Positions 14,156 to 37,050 of a DNA stretch of 37,050 nucleotides are shown in pieces. The notes beneath the pieces are model-generated. The model ran no database searches. It was not told where the DNA came from and was given only the letters and a program-made list of their open reading frames with translations. The first letter of the stretch is position 1. The number at the start of each line of letters is the position of its first letter. The stretch is from an uncultured archaeon (GTDB lineage Archaea > Micrarchaeota > Micrarchaeia > CABMEP01), in contig CABMEP010000042.1 in NCBI GenBank assembly GCA_902385155.1, positions 1 to 37,050 of the forward strand, given 5' to 3'. A program made the position numbers and the translations under genes.

Positions 14156-15325
14156 ATGCAGAGGACATTCAAGTTCCGTCTGTATCCCTCGAGAAGTCAG
14201 GAGAAGCAGATGAAGGAGCATCTGCGGATGGCAAAAGATCTCCAGAACAAACTTCTCACTTATTCGATAGAGAACTACAGCAAGACAGGCAAGTTTCCGA
14301 GCAAGTTTGATCTTCAGAGACTGGCGAAAGGAGAAGGATTGTATTCACAGACACAACAGACAATTGCGCATAAAGTCTCAGATTCCATATTCAGAGTATT
14401 CAAGCTGAGGAAGAAGGGGATAAAATGCGGATTTCCACGCTTCAAATCGATAGACAGGGTGAAATCACTGCTTTATCCGCAGTTTGGATTCAAACTCGGC
14501 AATAAATTGAAAGTCACTCCTTTCGGAGAGATCTCAATCAAGCAGCACAGAAATATCGAAGGGAAGGTAAAGACGCTGACCCTCAAGAGAGAACCATCAG
14601 GAAAGTGGTTTGCAATCTTTTGCGTCGAACCGGAAAGGAAAGAGCCAAAGACTAATCATAGAGAGAAGATTGGACTAGATTTAGGTCTGAAAACATTTGC
14701 AACTCTTTCAAATGGAGATAGAATAGGCAACCCACGACATCTGAAGAGATACGAAAACAGACTTGCATCATATCAACAGATTCTTTCCAAGAAGAAGAAA
14801 GGAAGCAACAACAGAAATAAGGCAAAGCTGAACGTTGCAAGAATCTATGAGAAAATTTCAAATGCACGATCTGATTTCCTCCATAAGGTTTCAACACAGT
14901 TAGTCAATGATTATTCCTTCATAGCACTTGAGAAGCTTGCCTCAAGAGAAATGTCAAAGAAAAGGTTCGGCAAGCAAATCAATGATGCCGGATGGAATAT
15001 GTTCGCGAATATGCTTCGCTACAAAGCGGAAGAAGCTGGTTGTAAAGTGATATTCGTAGACCCAAAGAACACAACCCAGATGTGTAGCTGCTGTCATCAG
15101 ATGGTCGAGAAGGATCTGTTAGATAGAATACATGACTGTCCTTCTTGCGGCCTTGTAATTGACCGAGACCATAACGCGGCCATAAATATACTCAATCGAG
15201 GATTGAGACAAATAGGGCAGGAACTGCCCGAATTCAAGCCTCTTAGAGAGGGAACCGATACTGATAAAAAGTTATGTCAGCAAGTTCCTTTAATGAAAGA
15301 GGAAGCTACTTGCCTTAGCTGGTAG
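14156..15325 (+). CDS. tnpB: TnpB RNA-guided nuclease (RuvC-like, OrfB family)
   Basis: MQRTFKFRLYPSRSQEKQM; RuvC GLDLGLKTFA (D), ALEKLAS (E), DRDHNAAINILNRG (D); zinc ribbon CSCC-17-CPSC; C-terminus MKEEATCLSW. Confidence 0.95.
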   Translation: MQRTFKFRLYPSRSQEKQMKEHLRMAKDLQNKLLTYSIENYSKTGKFPSKFDLQRLAKGEGLYSQTQQTIAHKVSDSIFRVFKLRKKGIKCGFPRFKSIDRVKSLLYPQFGFKLGNKLKVTPFGEISIKQHRNIEGKVKTLTLKREPSGKWFAIFCVEPERKEPKTNHREKIGLDLGLKTFATLSNGDRIGNPRHLKRYENRLASYQQILSKKKKGSNNRNKAKLNVARIYEKISNARSDFLHKVSTQLVNDYSFIALEKLASREMSKKRFGKQINDAGWNMFANMLRYKAEEAGCKVIFVDPKNTTQMCSCCHQMVEKDLLDRIHDCPSCGLVIDRDHNAAINILNRGLRQIGQELPEFKPLREGTDTDKKLCQQVPLMKEEATCLSW

Positions 15326-25854: not shown

Positions 25855-25866
25855 AATATTTAAAAG
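25855..25866 (+). promoter_or_regulatory. TATA box for the giant surface protein gene (leaderless)
   Basis: aatatttaaaag centred about 24-25 nt upstream of ATG 25885. Confidence 0.6.
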
Positions 25867-25884: not shown

Positions 25885-28800
25885 ATGATGTCCTTAGCGC
25901 CAGGTCAGATACGAGGGCCGCAGCGGCCCCAATGCCAGACTGTTCCATACGTTATTTCATTGGCGCTATCGTTTCTATTCCTTTTCGGGACAGTCTCCGC
26001 TTTAACGTGGACATCTGAAAATTTAGGCAATACCGGAGGATTCACGTATGGGACATCTATAGCCACAGATAGTAGCGGCGTTCCCCATATCGCTTACTGC
26101 GCCGGCAACGGTCTTCACTATGCCAATAAGTCCGGTGGTTCCTGGTCCGACGCTCTAATCGATTCATATTGCCGTGGCACCGAGATCGCGGTCAATTCTA
26201 CGGGCGACGTCAGTATCATATATGGGAATTCCACCGCAGTGAAATACGCGTACAAGCCGAGCGGCGGATCCTGGACCAAGGAAGTGATTGAGAATTCGGA
26301 CGATATCACATACAACACCGATGCAGGTAACTCGATCCAGCTTGATTCCAACGGCGTGCCGCACGTATGTTACTCGAACTCGAGTTGGTCCGTGAAATAT
26401 GCAAATCGTACAGGCGGATCCTGGTCATCGGAAGTGATAGAATCATCGGCCAATCGTCTTGTGAAATGTCATATCGCATTGGACAACTCCAATGTGCCTC
26501 ATGTCGTGTACGGGGATTTCTCCACAGGGCAGCTGAAATACGCCAACAAGTCCGGCGGCTCCTGGTCGTACATGGTCCTCAACTCAAGTTCAGGCGCGCA
26601 AAACAGGCCGACCATAGCGATAGGCGGCGACAATGTCCCGCGTGTCGGATTTTACATCAATAACGACGGAATCAAGTATGCGGCACGGAGCGGGGGCACC
26701 TGGTCGTTCGCCTCGGTTTATAGCGCCGGATCCGGTCTGAGCGACGCGTCCATCGCGGTTGATTCCTACGGCATACCTCACATGAGCTTCAAGTACTACA
26801 ATGGGACCAACCAGTATCTCTGGTATGGGAACGGAACTCCGAATTCCTGGGGGCCGCAATGGACTGCCCAGCTAGTGGACCCATTGGCCGGCGCAGGATC
26901 CACTGATTCGATCGCAATCGATTCGTCCAATTATGTCCATATCATCCACGCGTATTACAATTCAACCTCCGGCACGAATTTCATAATTTACGATAAGTCC
27001 ACCACACCTGCCGTAGCTCCGTCGCCGATGTGCACCGATATCACTACTCCGAACACCGTCTATAACATGACGGGAAACATAACTGTGGCAGACATCCCAT
27101 GCTGTTCCGCCAAGAATTGCTTCAACATCATGGCGAACAACGTCACATTAGATTGCAAAGGCTACACGATAACCTACGCCCAAAACTCCAACAACCTACG
27201 CGCGATCGGTTCCGGGTATAACTACACCACGATAAAGAACTGCAACCTCGTCCAGAACACTGCCAACGGCGGCGGCAACTATGCCATCATATTGTCTGGA
27301 TCCAACAGCAACCTGATCAAGGACACTAACGTTTCGGTTGCGTCCTCCTCAACGTACGGAGTGCAGCTTTCGTCAGTATCTAACACTACATTCTCAAACT
27401 TAATTGTTAACACTACAGGCGGGGGAAATTATCCGTACGGATCGAGCGCATTCTATCTTTCCGGCTGTTCCAATGTAACGATAACAAACAGCAGCATGAA
27501 CGCATCAGGGGGCAACAGCAACGCAATCTATCTAATATCGTCATCCAACAATGTCAACATTACGAAATGCAATATGAACGCAGGTTCATTCGGAATTTAT
27601 TTCGAGGCAAGCTCAGATAATGTGTTCATCAATGCAAGCAACATAACCGCTTCCAATGGGTTGTACATCACCGCGAGCAAGAACAGCACGGTGATGAACA
27701 GCAACATCTCGACTTCCGGGGGAGGCTATGGCGGCATCTACCTCTCTCCAACCTCATCCAGCAACACGGACAACCACACGTTCATGAACAATACGATCTC
27801 GGTGACAGGTAACGGCCGCGCGATTCAAGTTGCGTCTTATTCGTATGGCGTCAACAACATGACCATCGCATATAACAACATATCGATAACGAACGGCTCC
27901 TCCAGCAGCTACTCCGCTCTCTATTTCTACTACTCCAACTCCACCAATATCTCCGGGAACCGCATATTCGCCATAGGGAACGGATCCGGCATAAAGCTCG
28001 ACACCTATTCCACCAACAACTTGATATACAACAACTACATCTACGGCGATCCGCCTGCGACAATCACCGATACTTCTTTGAACCGCTGGAACACCACGTT
28101 CACCTGCGGCGCGGGCATCCGGAACATCGTCGGGGGCAACTGCACTGGCGGGAATTACTATGCGAATCCGACGGGTACTGGGTTCTCTGAGGCGTGCACC
28201 GTTAACATGACGACCGGCCTATGCACGAGCACGTACCCAATCGCCACGAACAACATCGACTACGCACCCGTGACGATCATACCGCCGACCTGCGGGGTGT
28301 TCGACGCCTCCGGCACCTACACCATGAGGAGCGACCTCGCGAGCAACGGGACATGCATCAACATCACTGCGAGCGACGTCGTCTTCGATTGCAACGGCTA
28401 CACGATCAATTACTCGCAGAACGGCACAGGATACGGGATATACGCCAACGGCGTCAACGGCACCGTCATAAAGAACTGCAACATACAGCAGACTAATTCC
28501 AGCAACCCCGATTCCCCTGCGATCTACCTGTCTGGAACCAACGGCGGCGCGATCCAGAACATCAATGCGCTGGCGACAGGTTCGGGCAGCTATGGTTTGT
28601 ACCTGTCCAATACCAACAACAGCAACGTCACGGGCGGATTCTTCGTAAGCTCGAATTCCTTCGGCCTATACATCGATTCGTCCAGCTCAGGCAACCGCAT
28701 ATTCAACAACATCATAACTGGCATCATCGATCCGGTCTCTCTCAACTCGGCCGGGACGAACTACTGGAACAGCGTGCCCACGGCCGGAATCAATATACTC

Positions 28801-31800
28801 AGCGGCCCGTGGATCGCGGGCAACTACTACGCCAATTCAACCAACGGCGGTTTCTCGCAGAACCCGGCGAACTGCACGGATGCCAACGGCGACGGAATCT
28901 GCGATAGCAACTATGTCCTCGATTCCAACAACATCGACTACCTGCCGCTGACCGCATCCGCCTCTCCCGTCCAGCTCACGGGCTGCGGCAACCTCGCTTC
29001 CCCTGGCGTATATGTTCTTTCCAAGGACATCAGCAACGCAGGCACGTGCTTGAATGTCCTGGCGGACAACGTTACGATATACTGCCAGGGACACACGATC
29101 AAATACTCGCAGTCGGCGACAGGATACGGTGTCAATTCGACCAATTACAACAATACGGCGGTCAAGTACTGCACCATCCTCCAGAATTCGACGAGTGGAA
29201 GCGCATATGCGGTATACTTCTCGGGGGTCAATGACGGCGTCATCCTAGGCAACACGATGACCACGTTCGGCGCAAGCAGCTACGGCGTGTACCTGCCTTC
29301 GAATTCGAACAACAACATGCTTTCGGATAACATCATCACGACAGGCACGAACAATTTCGGGTATGGGATCTATCTCGCTTCCAGTTCCAACAACAATACG
29401 ATCGCCAGGAACAGGATAACCACAAACGGTTATGCCAGCTATGGGCTGTACATCTCGTCATGCAGTGCCATCAATACATCAAACAACAACATTTCCGTCA
29501 GCCAGTTCGGAACAGCCGCCATCAACACAGCGTCAACATCATACAGCACCCTGGCGAACAACAACGCGACCGCAGGCGACGGGTACGGCATTGCGGTAGG
29601 GGGAGACGACAACAATATAGTCAACAATTCGGCGGTGATCAGCAGTTCTGTCGGGGGCACCGCGGGAATCGGCGTGAGCGGGAACAGGAATAGCATAATG
29701 AACAACAGGGCGACCGCAAGCGGCACCACAATCTACGGTTTCTCCATCTCATCCGGAACGAACAATACCGTAACGGGCAATACGTTCTCCAGCGCGAGCT
29801 CATTCGGCGCCTATGTGGCCGGAACAGGCAATCTGATATACAACAACCGCATTAACGGCAGCACCCCGGTCTATGTTCCCTCGGGCTCTCAAAACAATTG
29901 GAATTCCACCACGTCTGCCGGAGCCAATATTGTAAATGGACCATACATCGGGGGCAATTACTATGCAAACACAGCAGGCACAGGGTACTCCCAGGGCTCG
30001 TCCTGCACCGATACCAATGGCGACGGCATCTGCGACGCCAGCTACACCATAAACGGGTCGAACAACGTCGATTCATTCCCGCTCAAGATGCCGACGGCGC
30101 TGTCCGGCTGCACCAACATCTCCTACGTAGGCGCCTACTATCTCAATCAGAGCGTCAGCAACTCCAGCACATGCTTCACGATCAAGTCGAACAACGTCAG
30201 CCTGGAATGCGCAGGCAAGACCATCAACTACTCGGCATCCGAGTTCGGCTACGGGATCAACTCCACCGGCTACAACAAGACGCTCGTCGGGGACTGCAAC
30301 ATAGTCCAGTCCAATGCGGGAGTCTCCAGCGCTCATGCGGTGTATCTCGCCAACGCCAACAACAGCGCCATCCAGAACAGCAACGTCTCGGTCAACAGCA
30401 CCAACGCGAATGCGATCTACCTGTCGAATTCCAACAGCAGCAACATCACCGGCAACATGCTCGCCAGCGCGAATTCCTATGGCGCGTATCTCGTCTCCGG
30501 CTCCGGCAACCGAATATTCAACAACCTGTTATACGGGAACAACAGCCCGGTCGGCCTGAGCTCCGCGGGCGCGAACGCATGGAACACGACGATGGCGCTC
30601 GGACCCAACGTCATCGGCGCGCCATACATCGGAGGGAATTTCTATTCCAATTCGAGCGGCACCGGCTTCTCGCAGGCCTGCACCGCGAACGCCTCCAGCG
30701 GGTTCTGCACCGCATCCTACGACCTGGGCGACGGGGTGAACGTCGATTCCCTGCCGTTGACGACGCTGGCCCCCAATTCGCTGGCCTCCTGCACGAACCT
30801 GAACCAATCCAATACAGGATACATCCTGATGAGGGACATCAGTTACGGGGCAGGCACATGCTTCACCGTCACGGCCGACAACATCACGCTGGACTGCATC
30901 GGCCATGCCGTGACGGGCGTCAGCGGCTACGGGGTGAACCTCAACGGCAGGTCGAACATCACGGTATCCAACTGCGCGTTCGCCGGATTCTCCACAGGGA
31001 TATACATGCCGTCCGGTTCGGGCTACAACATAGCCGCGAACAACATCAGCTCCAGCGTCAACGGCATCTACGTCAACGCCAGCGCCAACACGATAGCCGG
31101 CAACAGGCTGGCCTCGAACACGAACGGCATCCTCGTGAACTCGGGCTACAACAACACGATCACTAACAACACGTTCGTCTCGAACACGAACGGCATCTAC
31201 CTCAATGTCACTGCCACGAACACCACTATCGCGAACAACACCGCCAGTTGGAGTACTGCAAGCGGAATCTACCTCCTCTCAAGCTATAACACTATATACA
31301 ACAATACACTCTATAGGAACCTGCTGAATGGAGCGTACTTCTCTGCTTCTTCGAACAACACCATAACAAGCAACAACGTCAGCTGGAATGGCGGCACTTG
31401 TTTCGAGGGCTGCGGCAGCAACAACCCCTACGGCGGTTACGGTGTCTACTTCGATTCAGGTTCCAATAACCTCATCGCCAACAACACTGTCAGCTGGAAC
31501 GGCGGAGGCAACACCAGCGTCTACGCGCAGCCATTCGGTTACGGCCTTTATCTCTTTAACAGCTCCAACAACAATACAATCTTCAACAACAATGTCACCT
31601 ACAACGGCGGCAACACCACCGCCAATTACGCTTCTTGCACCGGCTACGGCATCTACATCAACAACGGTACCAACAACAACGTCTCCAATAACAACGCCAC
31701 TTCGAACCTCAATTGCACAGGCACAAGCAGCAATATGTACGGCCAGGGAATCTATCTCGGCGCCGCCTTCAACACCACTATCGCCAACAACTACATCGGC

Positions 31801-34800
31801 AACCACAGCTATTATGGCATCTACGTCTTCAACTATTACACTGGCTCGAACAACACCATCTTCAACAACACTATAATTACTGGTTCAGGCTTAAACCCAC
31901 GGGGAATATACTCTGTCTACGATTCCAACAGCACAATCTCCAACAACACCATCCAATTCGGTAATGTTGGAATCTCACTTGCCCACACCTCAAACCTCAC
32001 CATCTCAAACAATACCGTCAGCCTTGCCAGCGGCGGCTACAACAAGGGCATCTATTTCGATACCTCCTCTAACAACAGGATATTCAACAACATCTTCAAC
32101 AACAGCGAAAATGCCAATGATTACAGCGGCACCAACAACGTCTGGAACGCCACCCTCGACTGCACCGGTCCGGCCAACATCGTCGGCGGCCCATGCATGG
32201 GCGGCAACTACTGGGCCGCGCCTGCGGGCACTGGCTTCTCAGAGGCACAATCCTCATGCAACTCGAACGGAAGCGGCATATGCACCTATTCGTACGGCGT
32301 ACCGAGCTCCGGAGGCAATGATTACCTTCCATTGACTCTGCTCCCGATCTCGCCAGGCAGCACGTTCAGCGCCCCTGGCTTCGTCTACAACATGACCCAG
32401 AACTTCAGCAGCAACGGCACCGCCTTCACCATAGCGGCGAGCAACGTCACGATCGACTGCTTGGGCAACACCCTCACCGGCAACGGTTCCGGCAATGGCA
32501 TGACGAGCACAGGCAGCTACACGAACCTAACGGTGAAGAACTGCGTCATCAGGAACTTCAGCAATGCGATCTATTTCGGTGCCGGGATCACCTACAGCGC
32601 GATAACGAACAACACCCTCAGCGACAACGGCTTCGGCATCGATCTCAACGGGAGCTTCGGCAACACCAACAACATCGTCATCGCCAACAACACAGCCAGC
32701 AACAACAGCCAGTACGGCATAGGCCTCATCTCGGTGGTATCCGAATACAATTGGGCGAACACCGTAGCGAACAACACCGTCACCTCAAACGGCTATGGTC
32801 TCGGGTTCATCTACAGCTCGTACAGCGGATGGACAAATATCTACAATAATAAATTCAATAATAGTATCAATGCAATCACAGACAGCTACACCGCCCTGTG
32901 GAACACCACGATGAACTGCAGCGGTCCAGCAAACATCATAGGCGGCCCCTGCATGGCCGGCAATTACTGGGCCACCCCGTCCGGCACAGGATTCTCGGAG
33001 AACGCCACCGCGTGCAACGCCAACACCAGCGGAATCTGCACGTCGAACTACGTCATAAACGGCAGCAACATCGACTACCTGCCGCTCACCGCGCCGCTTG
33101 TGCCGTTCAACTGCAACACGCTCAACCAGCCCAACACAACATACACCATGAACCAGAACGTCAGCAGCGCAGGCACATGCTTCACGATCGCGGCGGACAA
33201 CGTGACGCTCGACTGCAATGGATATATGATCAATTACTCGCAGTCCGCGGCGGGATACGGCATCAACATCACAGGATACAATTCCACTACCATACAGAAT
33301 TGCAATGTCATACAAAATTCATCTTATGCATACTCGTACGGAATTTATCTTAAAAATGCGAATAACAGCGTAGTCAAAAACACCAATGTTTCAGTAAACA
33401 GCTCATTCAGCAATGGTGTGCGCCTCGATTCCAACGCTATCAACAACACGTTCACCAATGATATCGTCAACAGCAAGAACGGTTATGGGACATACATCCT
33501 TTCCAACTCCAATAACAACACATTCACCAACAACACCCTAAACGGCTCACTCAGTTGGAGTGGCGTGATAATCCAGTCCAGTGCCAATAATACCATTTAC
33601 AATAATATGATTAGTTCAGTTGGTTTCAGCGGTACGCGATACACAAACAACTGGAACACCACCCTCAACTGCAGCGGCGCAACCAACATCATCGGCGGAC
33701 CATGCATAGGTGGTAACGTCTATATCCCCCCCTCGGGGTATGGGTTTTCGTCGATGTGCCTTGATCTGGACGGCAACGGCGTCTGCGACAGCAGCTATGC
33801 TCTCTTCTCCGGTGATGTGAATAACACCGATTATCTCCCGCTCGCAACTCCGCAGACCCCGATCTCCAGCTGCAGCAACATCTCCTATACAGGCAGGTAC
33901 ATACTCACTCAAAACGTCAGCAACGCGACCACCTGCTTCAACATCCTCTCTGGCAACGTCGACCTGAACTGCAACGGGAGCACGGTCTCGTATGCCACGT
34001 CCGCCGCCGGATACGGGGTTCAGAATCCAGGCAGCCCGAACGTGACCATACGCAACTGCAACATCGTGCAAGGCTCTTCCGTGAGCGGCGCGCACGGCGT
34101 ATACCTCTCCTCTTCGGGCTCCGGGAACAACCTTGTCATGAAGAACAACATCTCCGTGTTCGGGAACAGCGCGTACGGGATCTACTTCAGCGGATCGACC
34201 GAAGGCATGGCGCTGAACGACAACTTCTCAGACAACCGCATCAACACGACTGGGACCAATTCGCACGGATTCAGGCTGGATCGGCTCGCCAACAGCGTCG
34301 TGGCGAGGAACAACGTCACCGTGAACGGGAACTATTCCTACGGCGCCAATGTCTTCAGGTCCGCCAGCAACAACATCACCGGCAACAGGATGGTCTCCAC
34401 CGGTTACGCCCAAACTGCGTGGTACCTCTCCTATTCTACTTCGAACAACTTCATAAATGAGACAATAATCACGAGCGGGAATTACAGCAACGGCCTGAAT
34501 TTCGGGACCAGCTCGAGCAGCAACAGCTTCACGGGCGCCAGCATCACCACGAGCGGCGACGGCGCTGTCGGGATGTACATATGGTCGAGCTCGTCCAACA
34601 ATTTCGCATACAACAACATCACCACGTATGGCGGCGGTTCCCCGGGCGCATACGGCATACAAGTGGAATCGGCCGCCTCGTCCAATAACTTCACGAACAA
34701 CCGTATAATGACGAACGGATCCGGTTCCTACGGCGCGTACATCAGGTATAGCTCCACCACCAGCAACCTCCTGGCGAACAACACAATACTCTCGCCGTAC

Positions 34801-37050
34801 ACCGCAGCCATAGCGATGGACCAGGGGACGACCGGCAACAGCCTGTTCAACAACAACCTCAATTCCACCGACGGGGTCGTGTTCACGAACGGCGCAGCCG
34901 CCAACAACTGGAACACCACGCTCAACTGCGCGGGCCCCGCCAACATCGTCGGCGGCGCCTGCATCGGAGGCAATTTCTACGCGAATCCCGCGGGAACGGC
35001 CTTCTCGCAGAACGACGGCCTCTGCCATGCGAACGCCTCCGGCCTCTGCGCCAGCAACTACACTCTTGCGGCCGGCAACATCGACTACCTGCCGCTGACA
35101 CTCATATCGCCGCCAACGCCGCTCGCAGCGTGCGGGACGATCGACCAGGCCAATACGATCTACATCCTGACGCAGAACGTCTCCAGCCCCGATACCTGCT
35201 TCACGATAGCGGCGAACAATGTCACCCTCGACTGCAACGGATACACGATCACCGGCCCGGGCAGCTCGGGCTACGGGATCAACAACAGCGCCGGCTTCGA
35301 CTACGTCACCGTGCAGAACTGCGCCATCACGAGCTTCAACATAGGCATCAATTTCGCGAACGGAACCCGTTACAGTGCGATCTTCAACAGTAATGTCAGC
35401 TCGAACAGCCAACACGGCATATACCTCTTCTCCAGCCCCGACAACGTCATCACCAACAGCACCTCCAACAACAACTCGGGCACGAGCCACTACGGCATCT
35501 ACGTCATATCCAGCAACAATACCGTCATTTCCAACAGCGCCGCCAACTCGAACTACTGGGGAATCGCCCTCTCCTCCAGCGGGAACAGCACCATCATCAA
35601 CTGCACCGTAAACTCGAACACCAGATACGGCATCCGCATCTCCTCCTCCAATAACAACATGATCTCCAACAATACCGTCAATTCAGACGGCAACGAAGGG
35701 ATCTACCTCTCCTCCAGCTCCAGCAACACAATATACAACAACAATGCCAGCTCGAGCGGAGACGGCATCCGCCTCGAGAACTGCAACGGCAACAACGTCA
35801 CCCGCAACACCGTCAGCTCGAACAGCAACGGAATCTACCTCTATGACAACGCCAACAGCAACACGATCGCCAACAACAACGTCAGCAACAACAGCCAGTA
35901 CGGCATCCGGCTCTACACCAACGCCAACAGCAACACGATCGCCAACAACACATTCATCAACAACAGCGTGCACGGCATCAACCTCGCCTCCAGCTCGAGC
36001 AACGTCTTCTACAACAACTTCCTCAACAACTCCCAGAACGTCCAGAGCGACGGCTCGCTGAACTACTGGAACACCACCATGGCCGCCGGCACCAACATCG
36101 TCAACGGCCCGTACATCGGGGGCAACTTCTGGGCGAACCCGTCCGGCACGGGATACTCCGAGAACCCAGACTACTGCATCGCGAACGGCTCCAGCGGGTT
36201 CTGCACCATACCATACTCCATCGACGGCAGCAACATCGACTACCTGCCCCTGACGCTGCTGCAGCCGCCGGTATCGCTCGCAGCCTGCGGGACGCTCAAT
36301 CAGGCCAATAGGCTGTATATCCTGACGCAGGACGTGAGCTCCAATGCCGGCTGTTTCGTCGTCTCCGCGAACGGCGTGATGCTCGACTGCGCCGGCCACA
36401 CGATCAATTATTCGAGGACTTCGTCCGGATACGCCATAGACTTCTCATCGACGCTTTCGGGCGTCACGGTCAAGAACTGCATCATCACGCAAGGAGGCGC
36501 CTACAGTTACGGATCCGGCGTGAACGTCTACTCTGGCTTTGCTACGGCAGACAACGACCGGTTCATCAACAACACGATAACCACGTCGGGCAACTATTCG
36601 TATGGATTCTCCATCACAACTTCTTCTGTCTACAATTTCAACAATATAACATACTATAACAACAAGATCAATACCAGCGGATACCAGTCTCACGGAATCT
36701 CCCTCAGCAATGCCACTTCCTGCAACTTCACAAACAATAACATCACCACGGCCGCCAACAACTCGCACGGCTTTTTGATGTTTGGCAGCTCTAACAACGC
36801 GTTCTCGGGCAATGTCATACACACTACGGCCCCGCAGGCATATGGCATGACGTTCTATTCGGCGAGCAACGGCAACCTAATCACGAACAACAACATAACC
36901 ACGTACGGCAACATGGCGCGCGGTTTGTATCTCGATACTTTCTCAAACAACACTGTCGCAGGTAACATCATCAATGCGCTCAACGCGACGACCCATGGAA
37001 TCTCCGTCTTCTCAAGCTCCAACAACCTGTTCTACAACAACGTATTCAAC
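25885..37050 (+). CDS. Giant modular surface protein (at least 3722 codons, 3' truncated by window): signal peptide, beta-propeller, ten NosD/PbH1-type beta-helix modules
   Basis: Frame starting at 25885 read codon by codon with no stop to base 37050; signal peptide PYVISLALSFLFLFGTVSA; repeated LDCNGYTI...GYGI...IKNC, NNxxxNN coils, GGNYYANPSGTGFSxxC, NNIDYLPLT. Not in ORF track because it has no stop in the window. Confidence 0.93.
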   Translation, partial: MMSLAPGQIRGPQRPQCQTVPYVISLALSFLFLFGTVSALTWTSENLGNTGGFTYGTSIATDSSGVPHIAYCAGNGLHYANKSGGSWSDALIDSYCRGTEIAVNSTGDVSIIYGNSTAVKYAYKPSGGSWTKEVIENSDDITYNTDAGNSIQLDSNGVPHVCYSNSSWSVKYANRTGGSWSSEVIESSANRLVKCHIALDNSNVPHVVYGDFSTGQLKYANKSGGSWSYMVLNSSSGAQNRPTIAIGGDNVPRVGFYINNDGIKYAARSGGTWSFASVYSAGSGLSDASIAVDSYGIPHMSFKYYNGTNQYLWYGNGTPNSWGPQWTAQLVDPLAGAGSTDSIAIDSSNYVHIIHAYYNSTSGTNFIIYDKSTTPAVAPSPMCTDITTPNTVYNMTGNITVADIPCCSAKNCFNIMANNVTLDCKGYTITYAQNSNNLRAIGSGYNYTTIKNCNLVQNTANGGGNYAIILSGSNSNLIKDTNVSVASSSTYGVQLSSVSNTTFSNLIVNTTGGGNYPYGSSAFYLSGCSNVTITNSSMNASGGNSNAIYLISSSNNVNITKCNMNAGSFGIYFEASSDNVFINASNITASNGLYITASKNSTVMNSNISTSGGGYGGIYLSPTSSSNTDNHTFMNNTISVTGNGRAIQVASYSYGVNNMTIAYNNISITNGSSSSYSALYFYYSNSTNISGNRIFAIGNGSGIKLDTYSTNNLIYNNYIYGDPPATITDTSLNRWNTTFTCGAGIRNIVGGNCTGGNYYANPTGTGFSEACTVNMTTGLCTSTYPIATNNIDYAPVTIIPPTCGVFDASGTYTMRSDLASNGTCINITASDVVFDCNGYTINYSQNGTGYGIYANGVNGTVIKNCNIQQTNSSNPDSPAIYLSGTNGGAIQNINALATGSGSYGLYLSNTNNSNVTGGFFVSSNSFGLYIDSSSSGNRIFNNIITGIIDPVSLNSAGTNYWNSVPTAGINILSGPWIAGNYYANSTNGGFSQNPANCTDANGDGICDSNYVLDSNNIDYLPLTASASPVQLTGCGNLASPGVYVLSKDISNAGTCLNVLADNVTIYCQGHTIKYSQSATGYGVNSTNYNNTAVKYCTILQNSTSGSAYAVYFSGVNDGVILGNTMTTFGASSYGVYLPSNSNNNMLSDNIITTGTNNFGYGIYLASSSNNNTIARNRITTNGYASYGLYISSCSAINTSNNNISVSQFGTAAINTASTSYSTLANNNATAGDGYGIAVGGDDNNIVNNSAVISSSVGGTAGIGVSGNRNSIMNNRATASGTTIYGFSISSGTNNTVTGNTFSSASSFGAYVAGTGNLIYNNRINGSTPVYVPSGSQNNWNSTTSAGANIVNGPYIGGNYYANTAGTGYSQGSSCTDTNGDGICDASYTINGSNNVDSFPLKMPTALSGCTNISYVGAYYLNQSVSNSSTCFTIKSNNVSLECAGKTINYSASEFGYGINSTGYNKTLVGDCNIVQSNAGVSSAHAVYLANANNSAIQNSNVSVNSTNANAIYLSNSNSSNITGNMLASANSYGAYLVSGSGNRIFNNLLYGNNSPVGLSSAGANAWNTTMALGPNVIGAPYIGGNFYSNSSGTGFSQACTANASSGFCTASYDLGDGVNVDSLPLTTLAPNSLASCTNLNQSNTGYILMRDISYGAGTCFTVTADNITLDCIGHAVTGVSGYGVNLNGRSNITVSNCAFAGFSTGIYMPSGSGYNIAANNISSSVNGIYVNASANTIAGNRLASNTNGILVNSGYNNTITNNTFVSNTNGIYLNVTATNTTIANNTASWSTASGIYLLSSYNTIYNNTLYRNLLNGAYFSASSNNTITSNNVSWNGGTCFEGCGSNNPYGGYGVYFDSGSNNLIANNTVSWNGGGNTSVYAQPFGYGLYLFNSSNNNTIFNNNVTYNGGNTTANYASCTGYGIYINNGTNNNVSNNNATSNLNCTGTSSNMYGQGIYLGAAFNTTIANNYIGNHSYYGIYVFNYYTGSNNTIFNNTIITGSGLNPRGIYSVYDSNSTISNNTIQFGNVGISLAHTSNLTISNNTVSLASGGYNKGIYFDTSSNNRIFNNIFNNSENANDYSGTNNVWNATLDCTGPANIVGGPCMGGNYWAAPAGTGFSEAQSSCNSNGSGICTYSYGVPSSGGNDYLPLTLLPISPGSTFSAPGFVYNMTQNFSSNGTAFTIAASNVTIDCLGNTLTGNGSGNGMTSTGSYTNLTVKNCVIRNFSNAIYFGAGITYSAITNNTLSDNGFGIDLNGSFGNTNNIVIANNTASNNSQYGIGLISVVSEYNWANTVANNTVTSNGYGLGFIYSSYSGWTNIYNNKFNNSINAITDSYTALWNTTMNCSGPANIIGGPCMAGNYWATPSGTGFSENATACNANTSGICTSNYVINGSNIDYLPLTAPLVPFNCNTLNQPNTTYTMNQNVSSAGTCFTIAADNVTLDCNGYMINYSQSAAGYGINITGYNSTTIQNCNVIQNSSYAYSYGIYLKNANNSVVKNTNVSVNSSFSNGVRLDSNAINNTFTNDIVNSKNGYGTYILSNSNNNTFTNNTLNGSLSWSGVIIQSSANNTIYNNMISSVGFSGTRYTNNWNTTLNCSGATNIIGGPCIGGNVYIPPSGYGFSSMCLDLDGNGVCDSSYALFSGDVNNTDYLPLATPQTPISSCSNISYTGRYILTQNVSNATTCFNILSGNVDLNCNGSTVSYATSAAGYGVQNPGSPNVTIRNCNIVQGSSVSGAHGVYLSSSGSGNNLVMKNNISVFGNSAYGIYFSGSTEGMALNDNFSDNRINTTGTNSHGFRLDRLANSVVARNNVTVNGNYSYGANVFRSASNNITGNRMVSTGYAQTAWYLSYSTSNNFINETIITSGNYSNGLNFGTSSSSNSFTGASITTSGDGAVGMYIWSSSSNNFAYNNITTYGGGSPGAYGIQVESAASSNNFTNNRIMTNGSGSYGAYIRYSSTTSNLLANNTILSPYTAAIAMDQGTTGNSLFNNNLNSTDGVVFTNGAAANNWNTTLNCAGPANIVGGACIGGNFYANPAGTAFSQNDGLCHANASGLCASNYTLAAGNIDYLPLTLISPPTPLAACGTIDQANTIYILTQNVSSPDTCFTIAANNVTLDCNGYTITGPGSSGYGINNSAGFDYVTVQNCAITSFNIGINFANGTRYSAIFNSNVSSNSQHGIYLFSSPDNVITNSTSNNNSGTSHYGIYVISSNNTVISNSAANSNYWGIALSSSGNSTIINCTVNSNTRYGIRISSSNNNMISNNTVNSDGNEGIYLSSSSSNTIYNNNASSSGDGIRLENCNGNNVTRNTVSSNSNGIYLYDNANSNTIANNNVSNNSQYGIRLYTNANSNTIANNTFINNSVHGINLASSSSNVFYNNFLNNSQNVQSDGSLNYWNTTMAAGTNIVNGPYIGGNFWANPSGTGYSENPDYCIANGSSGFCTIPYSIDGSNIDYLPLTLLQPPVSLAACGTLNQANRLYILTQDVSSNAGCFVVSANGVMLDCAGHTINYSRTSSGYAIDFSSTLSGVTVKNCIITQGGAYSYGSGVNVYSGFATADNDRFINNTITTSGNYSYGFSITTSSVYNFNNITYYNNKINTSGYQSHGISLSNATSCNFTNNNITTAANNSHGFLMFGSSNNAFSGNVIHTTAPQAYGMTFYSASNGNLITNNNITTYGNMARGLYLDTFSNNTVAGNIINALNATTHGISVFSSSNNLFYNNVFN
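26041..27000 (+). other. Predicted 7-bladed beta-propeller domain in the giant protein
   Basis: Seven copies of a (S)IAxDSxGxPHIxY-like motif (near 26056, 26179, 26326, 26467, 26608, 26740, 26911) with interleaved YANKSGGSWSxEV. Confidence 0.6.
27010..37050 (+). repeat. Ten successive Cys-bearing PbH1/NosD modules (nine complete) of roughly 225-530 aa
   Basis: Module starts near 27010, 28262, 28951, 30082, 30751, 32335, 33091, 33841, 35098, 36247; each opens with xxC...TCFxIxANNVTLDCNGxTI and closes with GGNYYANPSGTGFSxxC...C...NNIDYLPLT. Confidence 0.8.
35847..35950 (+). repeat. Near-identical tandem coil unit, 72 bp (24 aa) period
   Basis: caacgccaacagcaacacgatcgccaacaaca occurs at 35847-35878 and 35919-35950. 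Confidence 0.85.

Follow-up and report, generated by a model that had tools for sequence, protein, structure and literature searches.

The window analysed here, a stretch of 37050 bases that makes up the whole of contig C42, ends in an open reading frame of 3722 codons (25885..37050, + strand, found by ORF scan) whose 3' end is lost at the contig end. It is likely that the product of this frame is a giant surface protein, secreted and N-glycosylated, in which a lectin-like propeller is mounted on a beta-helix rod and the head binds glycans of neighbouring cells or of the matrix. The protein is best read as a non-enzymatic adhesin or surface rod resembling the archaeal adhesin-like proteins, and perhaps it is used in host contact. 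At least 11.2 kb of an assembly of 965 kb (67 contigs, 83% complete), or more than 1% of the assembled genome of a small-genome micrarchaeon, would be spent on one surface protein, and the lectin-like head, if true, would be a candidate for how symbionts hold their host.

Extent and integrity of the open frame

A sequence-only reading had proposed that a single gene starts at ATG 25885, has no stop through base 37050 and runs on past the window. The frame was confirmed to be stop-free over its entire length with an open 3' end, and since the window is the complete contig, the gene is truncated at its 3' side. Two shorter ORFs, 29898..31166 (+) and 34228..35490 (-), were rightly taken for shadows, as both lie inside the giant frame, and the giant gene itself was absent from the ORF track because it has no stop codon. 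Where a metagenome contig ends inside such a gene, the gene can vanish from gene lists that require a stop. The probability that so long an open frame arises by chance is about 4e-68 at 54% GC, and GC by codon position is coding-like in all three complete 1000-codon blocks measured (0.38/0.50/0.69, 0.37/0.49/0.78 and 0.36/0.49/0.77 in succession). The visible part of the protein computes to 388.7 kDa, in agreement with the earlier estimate of more than 370 kDa, and has a calculated pI of 4.9.

It was also suggested that misassembly of the repeat region might refute the gene. An assembly artefact, being either a collapsed or expanded repeat or a chimaera of two genes, has in its favour that the end of C42 falls in the repeat region and that three more contigs of the same assembly break in similar genes. 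However, a search for tandem DNA repeats in the giant gene found none, and module copies share DNA identity (65-89%) in short patches only, so that misassembly by repeats is unlikely. The modules are diverged and the codon structure is uniform along the gene, and an independent genome of the same class (G117) encodes an array of nine modules within a single complete ORF (L172, 4554 codons between two stops, with nine each of caps and tails). On these grounds we regard an artefact as extremely improbable.

Signal-like start, predicted propeller head and beta-helix array

Some 24 nt upstream of ATG 25885 lies a TATA-box-like element, TATTTAAAA (25857..25865, + strand, read directly from the sequence), and this spacing is consistent with a leaderless archaeal transcript, if the element functions as such. 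The N-terminus that follows (residues 1-40, 25885..26004, + strand, VPYVISLALSFLFLFGTVSA followed by L) is hydrophobic and signal-like when its translation is judged by eye, as the earlier proposal of a signal peptide would have it.

The next part of the protein (26002..27030, + strand) is predicted to be a seven-bladed beta-propeller head with a PLL-lectin-like fold, as assigned by AlphaFold2, Foldseek and repeats seen by eye. Residues 40-382, folded alone with AlphaFold2, gave an all-beta model of 28 strands (pTM 0.82), and the top Foldseek matches were the Photorhabdus PLL/PHL lectins (E 2e-12, TM up to 0.72-0.73, at 10-15% identity). Seven sequence repeats were counted by eye, and the predicted model has the seven-bladed fold of the PLL-type propeller lectins. 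The head fold is one predicted by model, because the Pfam propeller-repeat match to this region is sub-threshold only. The propeller module proposed earlier is thus borne out by the predicted fold and its PLL/PHL match, and it may be that the head binds glycans, as the fold suggests at 10-15% identity.

From residue 383 on, profile models found ten caps that alternate strictly with nine tails, where the cap consensus TCFxIxAxNVTLDCxGYTI marks the start of a module and the tail consensus WNTT...NI.GGP.IGGN[FY][YW]...C...C...Y...NIDYLPLT marks its end. Module 1, with cap, rungs and tail, spans 27031..28290 (cap/tail HMMs; Pfam NosD/Beta_helix), and the cap/tail HMMs place module 2 at 28291..28977, module 3 at 28978..30105, module 4 at 30106..30786, module 5 at 30787..32352, module 6 at 32353..33111, module 7 at 33112..33867 and module 8 at 33868..35124. 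They are followed by module 9 (35125..36282), assigned by AlphaFold2 model and fold search, and by module 10 (36283..37050, cap HMM), in which the contig end precedes the tail motif; all ten are on the + strand. The Pfam families NosD (E 9.9e-189) and Beta_helix (E 4.6e-113) each matched 14 stretches, and the scores for right-handed parallel beta-helix profiles lie above the curated cut-offs, at 623.5 bits for PF05048 (cut-off 23.6), 374.5 bits for PF13229 (cut-off 25.9) and 81.8 bits for TIGR03804 (cut-off 19.45). For module 9 AlphaFold2 gave a right-handed beta-helix whose rungs are each about 23 residues long (pLDDT 80, pTM 0.81), and this model and its PDB fold matches conform to a parallel beta-helix with rungs of 20-25 residues. 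Its nearest solved folds are AlgG epimerase, AlgE, tailspikes, chondroitinase B and PL6 lyases, with the pneumococcal adhesin PfbA also near. Sequence matches of the beta-helix part in the PDB include AlgG, and the beta-helix modules of the sequence-only reading are therefore supported by Pfam, PDB sequence matches, the AlphaFold2 model and fold search alike. Summed over the modules, the visible rod has about 117 rungs, which at 0.48 nm per rung comes to roughly 56 nm when fully extended.

The missing 3' end and related genes

Beta-helix genes are cut at four contig edges of this genome, C42 and C52 holding 5' parts and C7 and C38 holding 3' parts. A 68-base stretch at the end of C52 recurs at the start of C38 (score 44 versus at most 15 in shuffles), and for this reason the two probably belong to one gene. 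Since C52 and C38 pair and leave C7, the latter is the likely 3' part of the giant gene, given an incomplete genome; C7 thus probably holds the 3' end of the C42 gene by elimination, not by overlap, and the full protein would probably have at least 4137 residues if C7 continues C42. A join of C42 and C7 by sequence overlap was tried and rejected (best score 16 versus 14 in shuffles). The C7 part comprises 415 residues, made up of beta-helix, one tail and a C-terminal domain of 140 residues. The paired C52 and C38 parts (L010 1-3887, - strand, and L027 3-3413, + strand) would thus make up a second large beta-helix gene, about 2,400 residues long, which adjoins a histidyl-tRNA-synthetase-like ORF and ends in a hydrophobic segment.

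The 140-residue domain was found at five places in the genome, also in several other surface-type ORFs. On C23 a secreted-looking protein of 174 residues (L011 1167-1691, + strand) consists almost solely of this domain, at 64-65% identity, and is possibly a surface subunit to which larger proteins attach; the LamG-type ORF that precedes it has the same domain at its end. Two open frames of 741 and 196 codons (L179, C45:8000-13000) carry weaker copies. A BLAST comparison with the C-terminus of the G117 giant found no kinship to the C7 domain (E about 1).

The carrier organism can be placed in the Ca. Micrarchaeum family by its EF-1A, which shares 92% identity with the Ca. Micrarchaeum sp. SulCav protein and 68-69% with those of two other Micrarchaeota. 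Matches at identical coordinates suggest that the SulCav genome is the same-family relative G001. Ten genes of the window were scanned, and they include EF-1A, GatB/E-type and amidase-type subunits, CCA enzyme, TnpB, enolase, SMC/Rad50 and iPGM. The TnpB/IS605 OrfB-type gene (14156-15322, + strand; OrfB_IS605, Cas12f1-like TNB, HTH) lies in a stretch of 41% GC versus mostly 54-64% for the contig outside the giant gene, and a recent acquisition is therefore suggested. In the nearest relative the contig stops inside the neighbouring phosphoglycerate mutase gene. In Ca. Micrarchaeum SulCav another such beta-helix gene (L083 9884-10942, + strand) overruns its contig end, and assemblies appear to break repeatedly in genes of this kind.

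It had been claimed that a protein of this size is exceptional for an archaeon with compact genes, and here the data point the other way. Matches to the NosD-type beta-helix were found in 192 of 223 genomes of the same class, where single open frames with such matches reach 4990, 4554, 4312, 3613, 3521 and 3203 codons; the genome itself has a second large beta-helix gene, and nanohaloarchaeal surface proteins reach 8,880 and 9,409 aa (PMC10266531). Great length and modular build are a recurring trait of the class, and the protein belongs to a known family. Among the other long frames, several have few or no caps and so resemble the giant in size and beta-helix content but not in full architecture. 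The module is spread across archaea, among them Methanosarcina, Methanolobus, Aenigmatarchaeota, Woesearchaeota, Micrarchaeota and Thermoplasmatota. In the Aenigmatarchaeota a complete ORF of 4126 codons (L097) has a signal-like start and the same cap, and in this and another complete relative (L079) the C-terminus consists of a hydrophobic segment and a basic tail. A search of the literature on giant or NosD-type Micrarchaeota proteins found no description of this protein.

Proposed function and comparison with known systems

Asparagine makes up 16.1% of the visible protein, which has 196 N-glycosylation sequons (187 within the helix part) versus a mean of 135 and a maximum of 172 in 500 shuffles that leave uncorrected the beta-helix repeat pattern, which alone favours N-x-T/S. 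The same genome has an STT3-type oligosaccharyltransferase match above cut-off, and the giant protein is probably N-glycosylated. We propose that, after cleavage of the signal peptide, the seven-bladed lectin-like propeller would be presented on an extended, rigid rod. Ten right-handed beta-helix modules in succession would build this rod, every one of them having a cap with cysteines and a tail linker with Trp, Asn and Cys. The rod would be structural and the head would bind glycans of a neighbouring cell or of the biofilm matrix. The lost 3' end is probably like C7, with further beta-helix and then the 140-residue domain, which probably keeps the protein at the surface.

As alginate epimerases, PL6 lyases and chondroitinase B are among the closest solved folds, and the PDB sequence matches extend to AlgG, the protein might instead be a polysaccharide-processing enzyme, a beta-helix epimerase or lyase acting on matrix or host glycans. 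However, no conserved charged column was found in the rungs across nine modules, although one active module among ten could escape such a comparison, and the sole conserved charged column is one Asp in the tail. The lack of a conserved charged position in the rungs argues against an enzyme, and we consider this reading very unlikely. S-layer lattices are usually built from a single abundant protein that is repeated, and this speaks against a structural part of the cell envelope (an S-layer or S-layer-associated rod) in place of an adhesin for another cell, as do the wide differences in size among relatives and the absence of the head from a close relative. An envelope role is nonetheless a lesser possibility that deserves some weight, as micrarchaea possess an S-layer whose anchoring is unknown (PMC8975820), and surface proteins of Mia14 join beta-propeller and adhesion modules in four genes that together occupy almost 2.5% of its genome (PMC5498576).

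An adhesin or surface rod with a glycan-binding head thus stays the preferred reading. Neither the propeller head nor the C7 terminal domain was found in a same-family relative whose genome is nearly complete, and the role is therefore not general for the family; their absence from the nearest relative is what one would expect of lineage-specific surface proteins. The host of cultured Ca. Micrarchaeum harzensis shows galactose and mannose, and filaments bridge both cells (PMC8975820). We put forward tentatively, as a speculation with perhaps a modest chance of being right, that a glycosylated, lectin-headed rod of at least 4100 residues might grip glycans of a Thermoplasmatales-type host and so be a lineage-specific, rapidly changing host-contact fibre.

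Like NosD (TIGR04247/PF05048), the giant protein has the same family of beta-helix repeats, and solved NosD (7o0y) was matched at E 7e-10. An assignment as NosD copper-processing protein was rejected (TIGR04247, 103.7 bits versus a cut-off of 300), and the ten window genes scanned include no nos genes. Like the SPEARE-type proteins of nanohaloarchaea, the protein is giant, acidic and putatively secreted to the surface of a DPANN symbiont; SPEARE-type proteins contain Ig-like domains together with a VirB4/TraG-like ATPase (PMC10266531), and Pfam found neither in the visible part, the 3' end lying beyond the contig. Micrarchaeal surface proteins with propeller domains have been published (PMC5498576), and the archaeal surface proteins of a 2002 work, as far as they are described where that work is cited in PMC5498576, also combine propeller and beta-helix, with modules related to those of the giant occurring in Methanosarcina and other archaea. 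Unlike those proteins as described there, the giant has no PKD match (Pfam, visible part), its propeller is nearest to the PLL lectins and its helix array is much longer. The G117 protein L172 resembles it in having a single-ORF array of caps and tails, with 28-32% identity over long stretches; in L172, unlike the giant, the beta-helix begins soon after the signal-like segment, and at its C-terminus similarity to the C7 domain is not detectable. The ALPs ('Asn/Thr-rich large proteins') of Methanosphaera and Methanobrevibacter have right-handed beta-helix domains, which are often repeated (PMC11532034). A Pfam scan of the visible 3722 residues found neither an archaeal Big domain nor a membrane anchor; the 3' end lies beyond the contig. 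The giant protein shares with ALPs its large size, Asn-rich composition and right-handed beta-helix domains (PMC11532034), and is set apart from them by its propeller head and ten successive helix modules.
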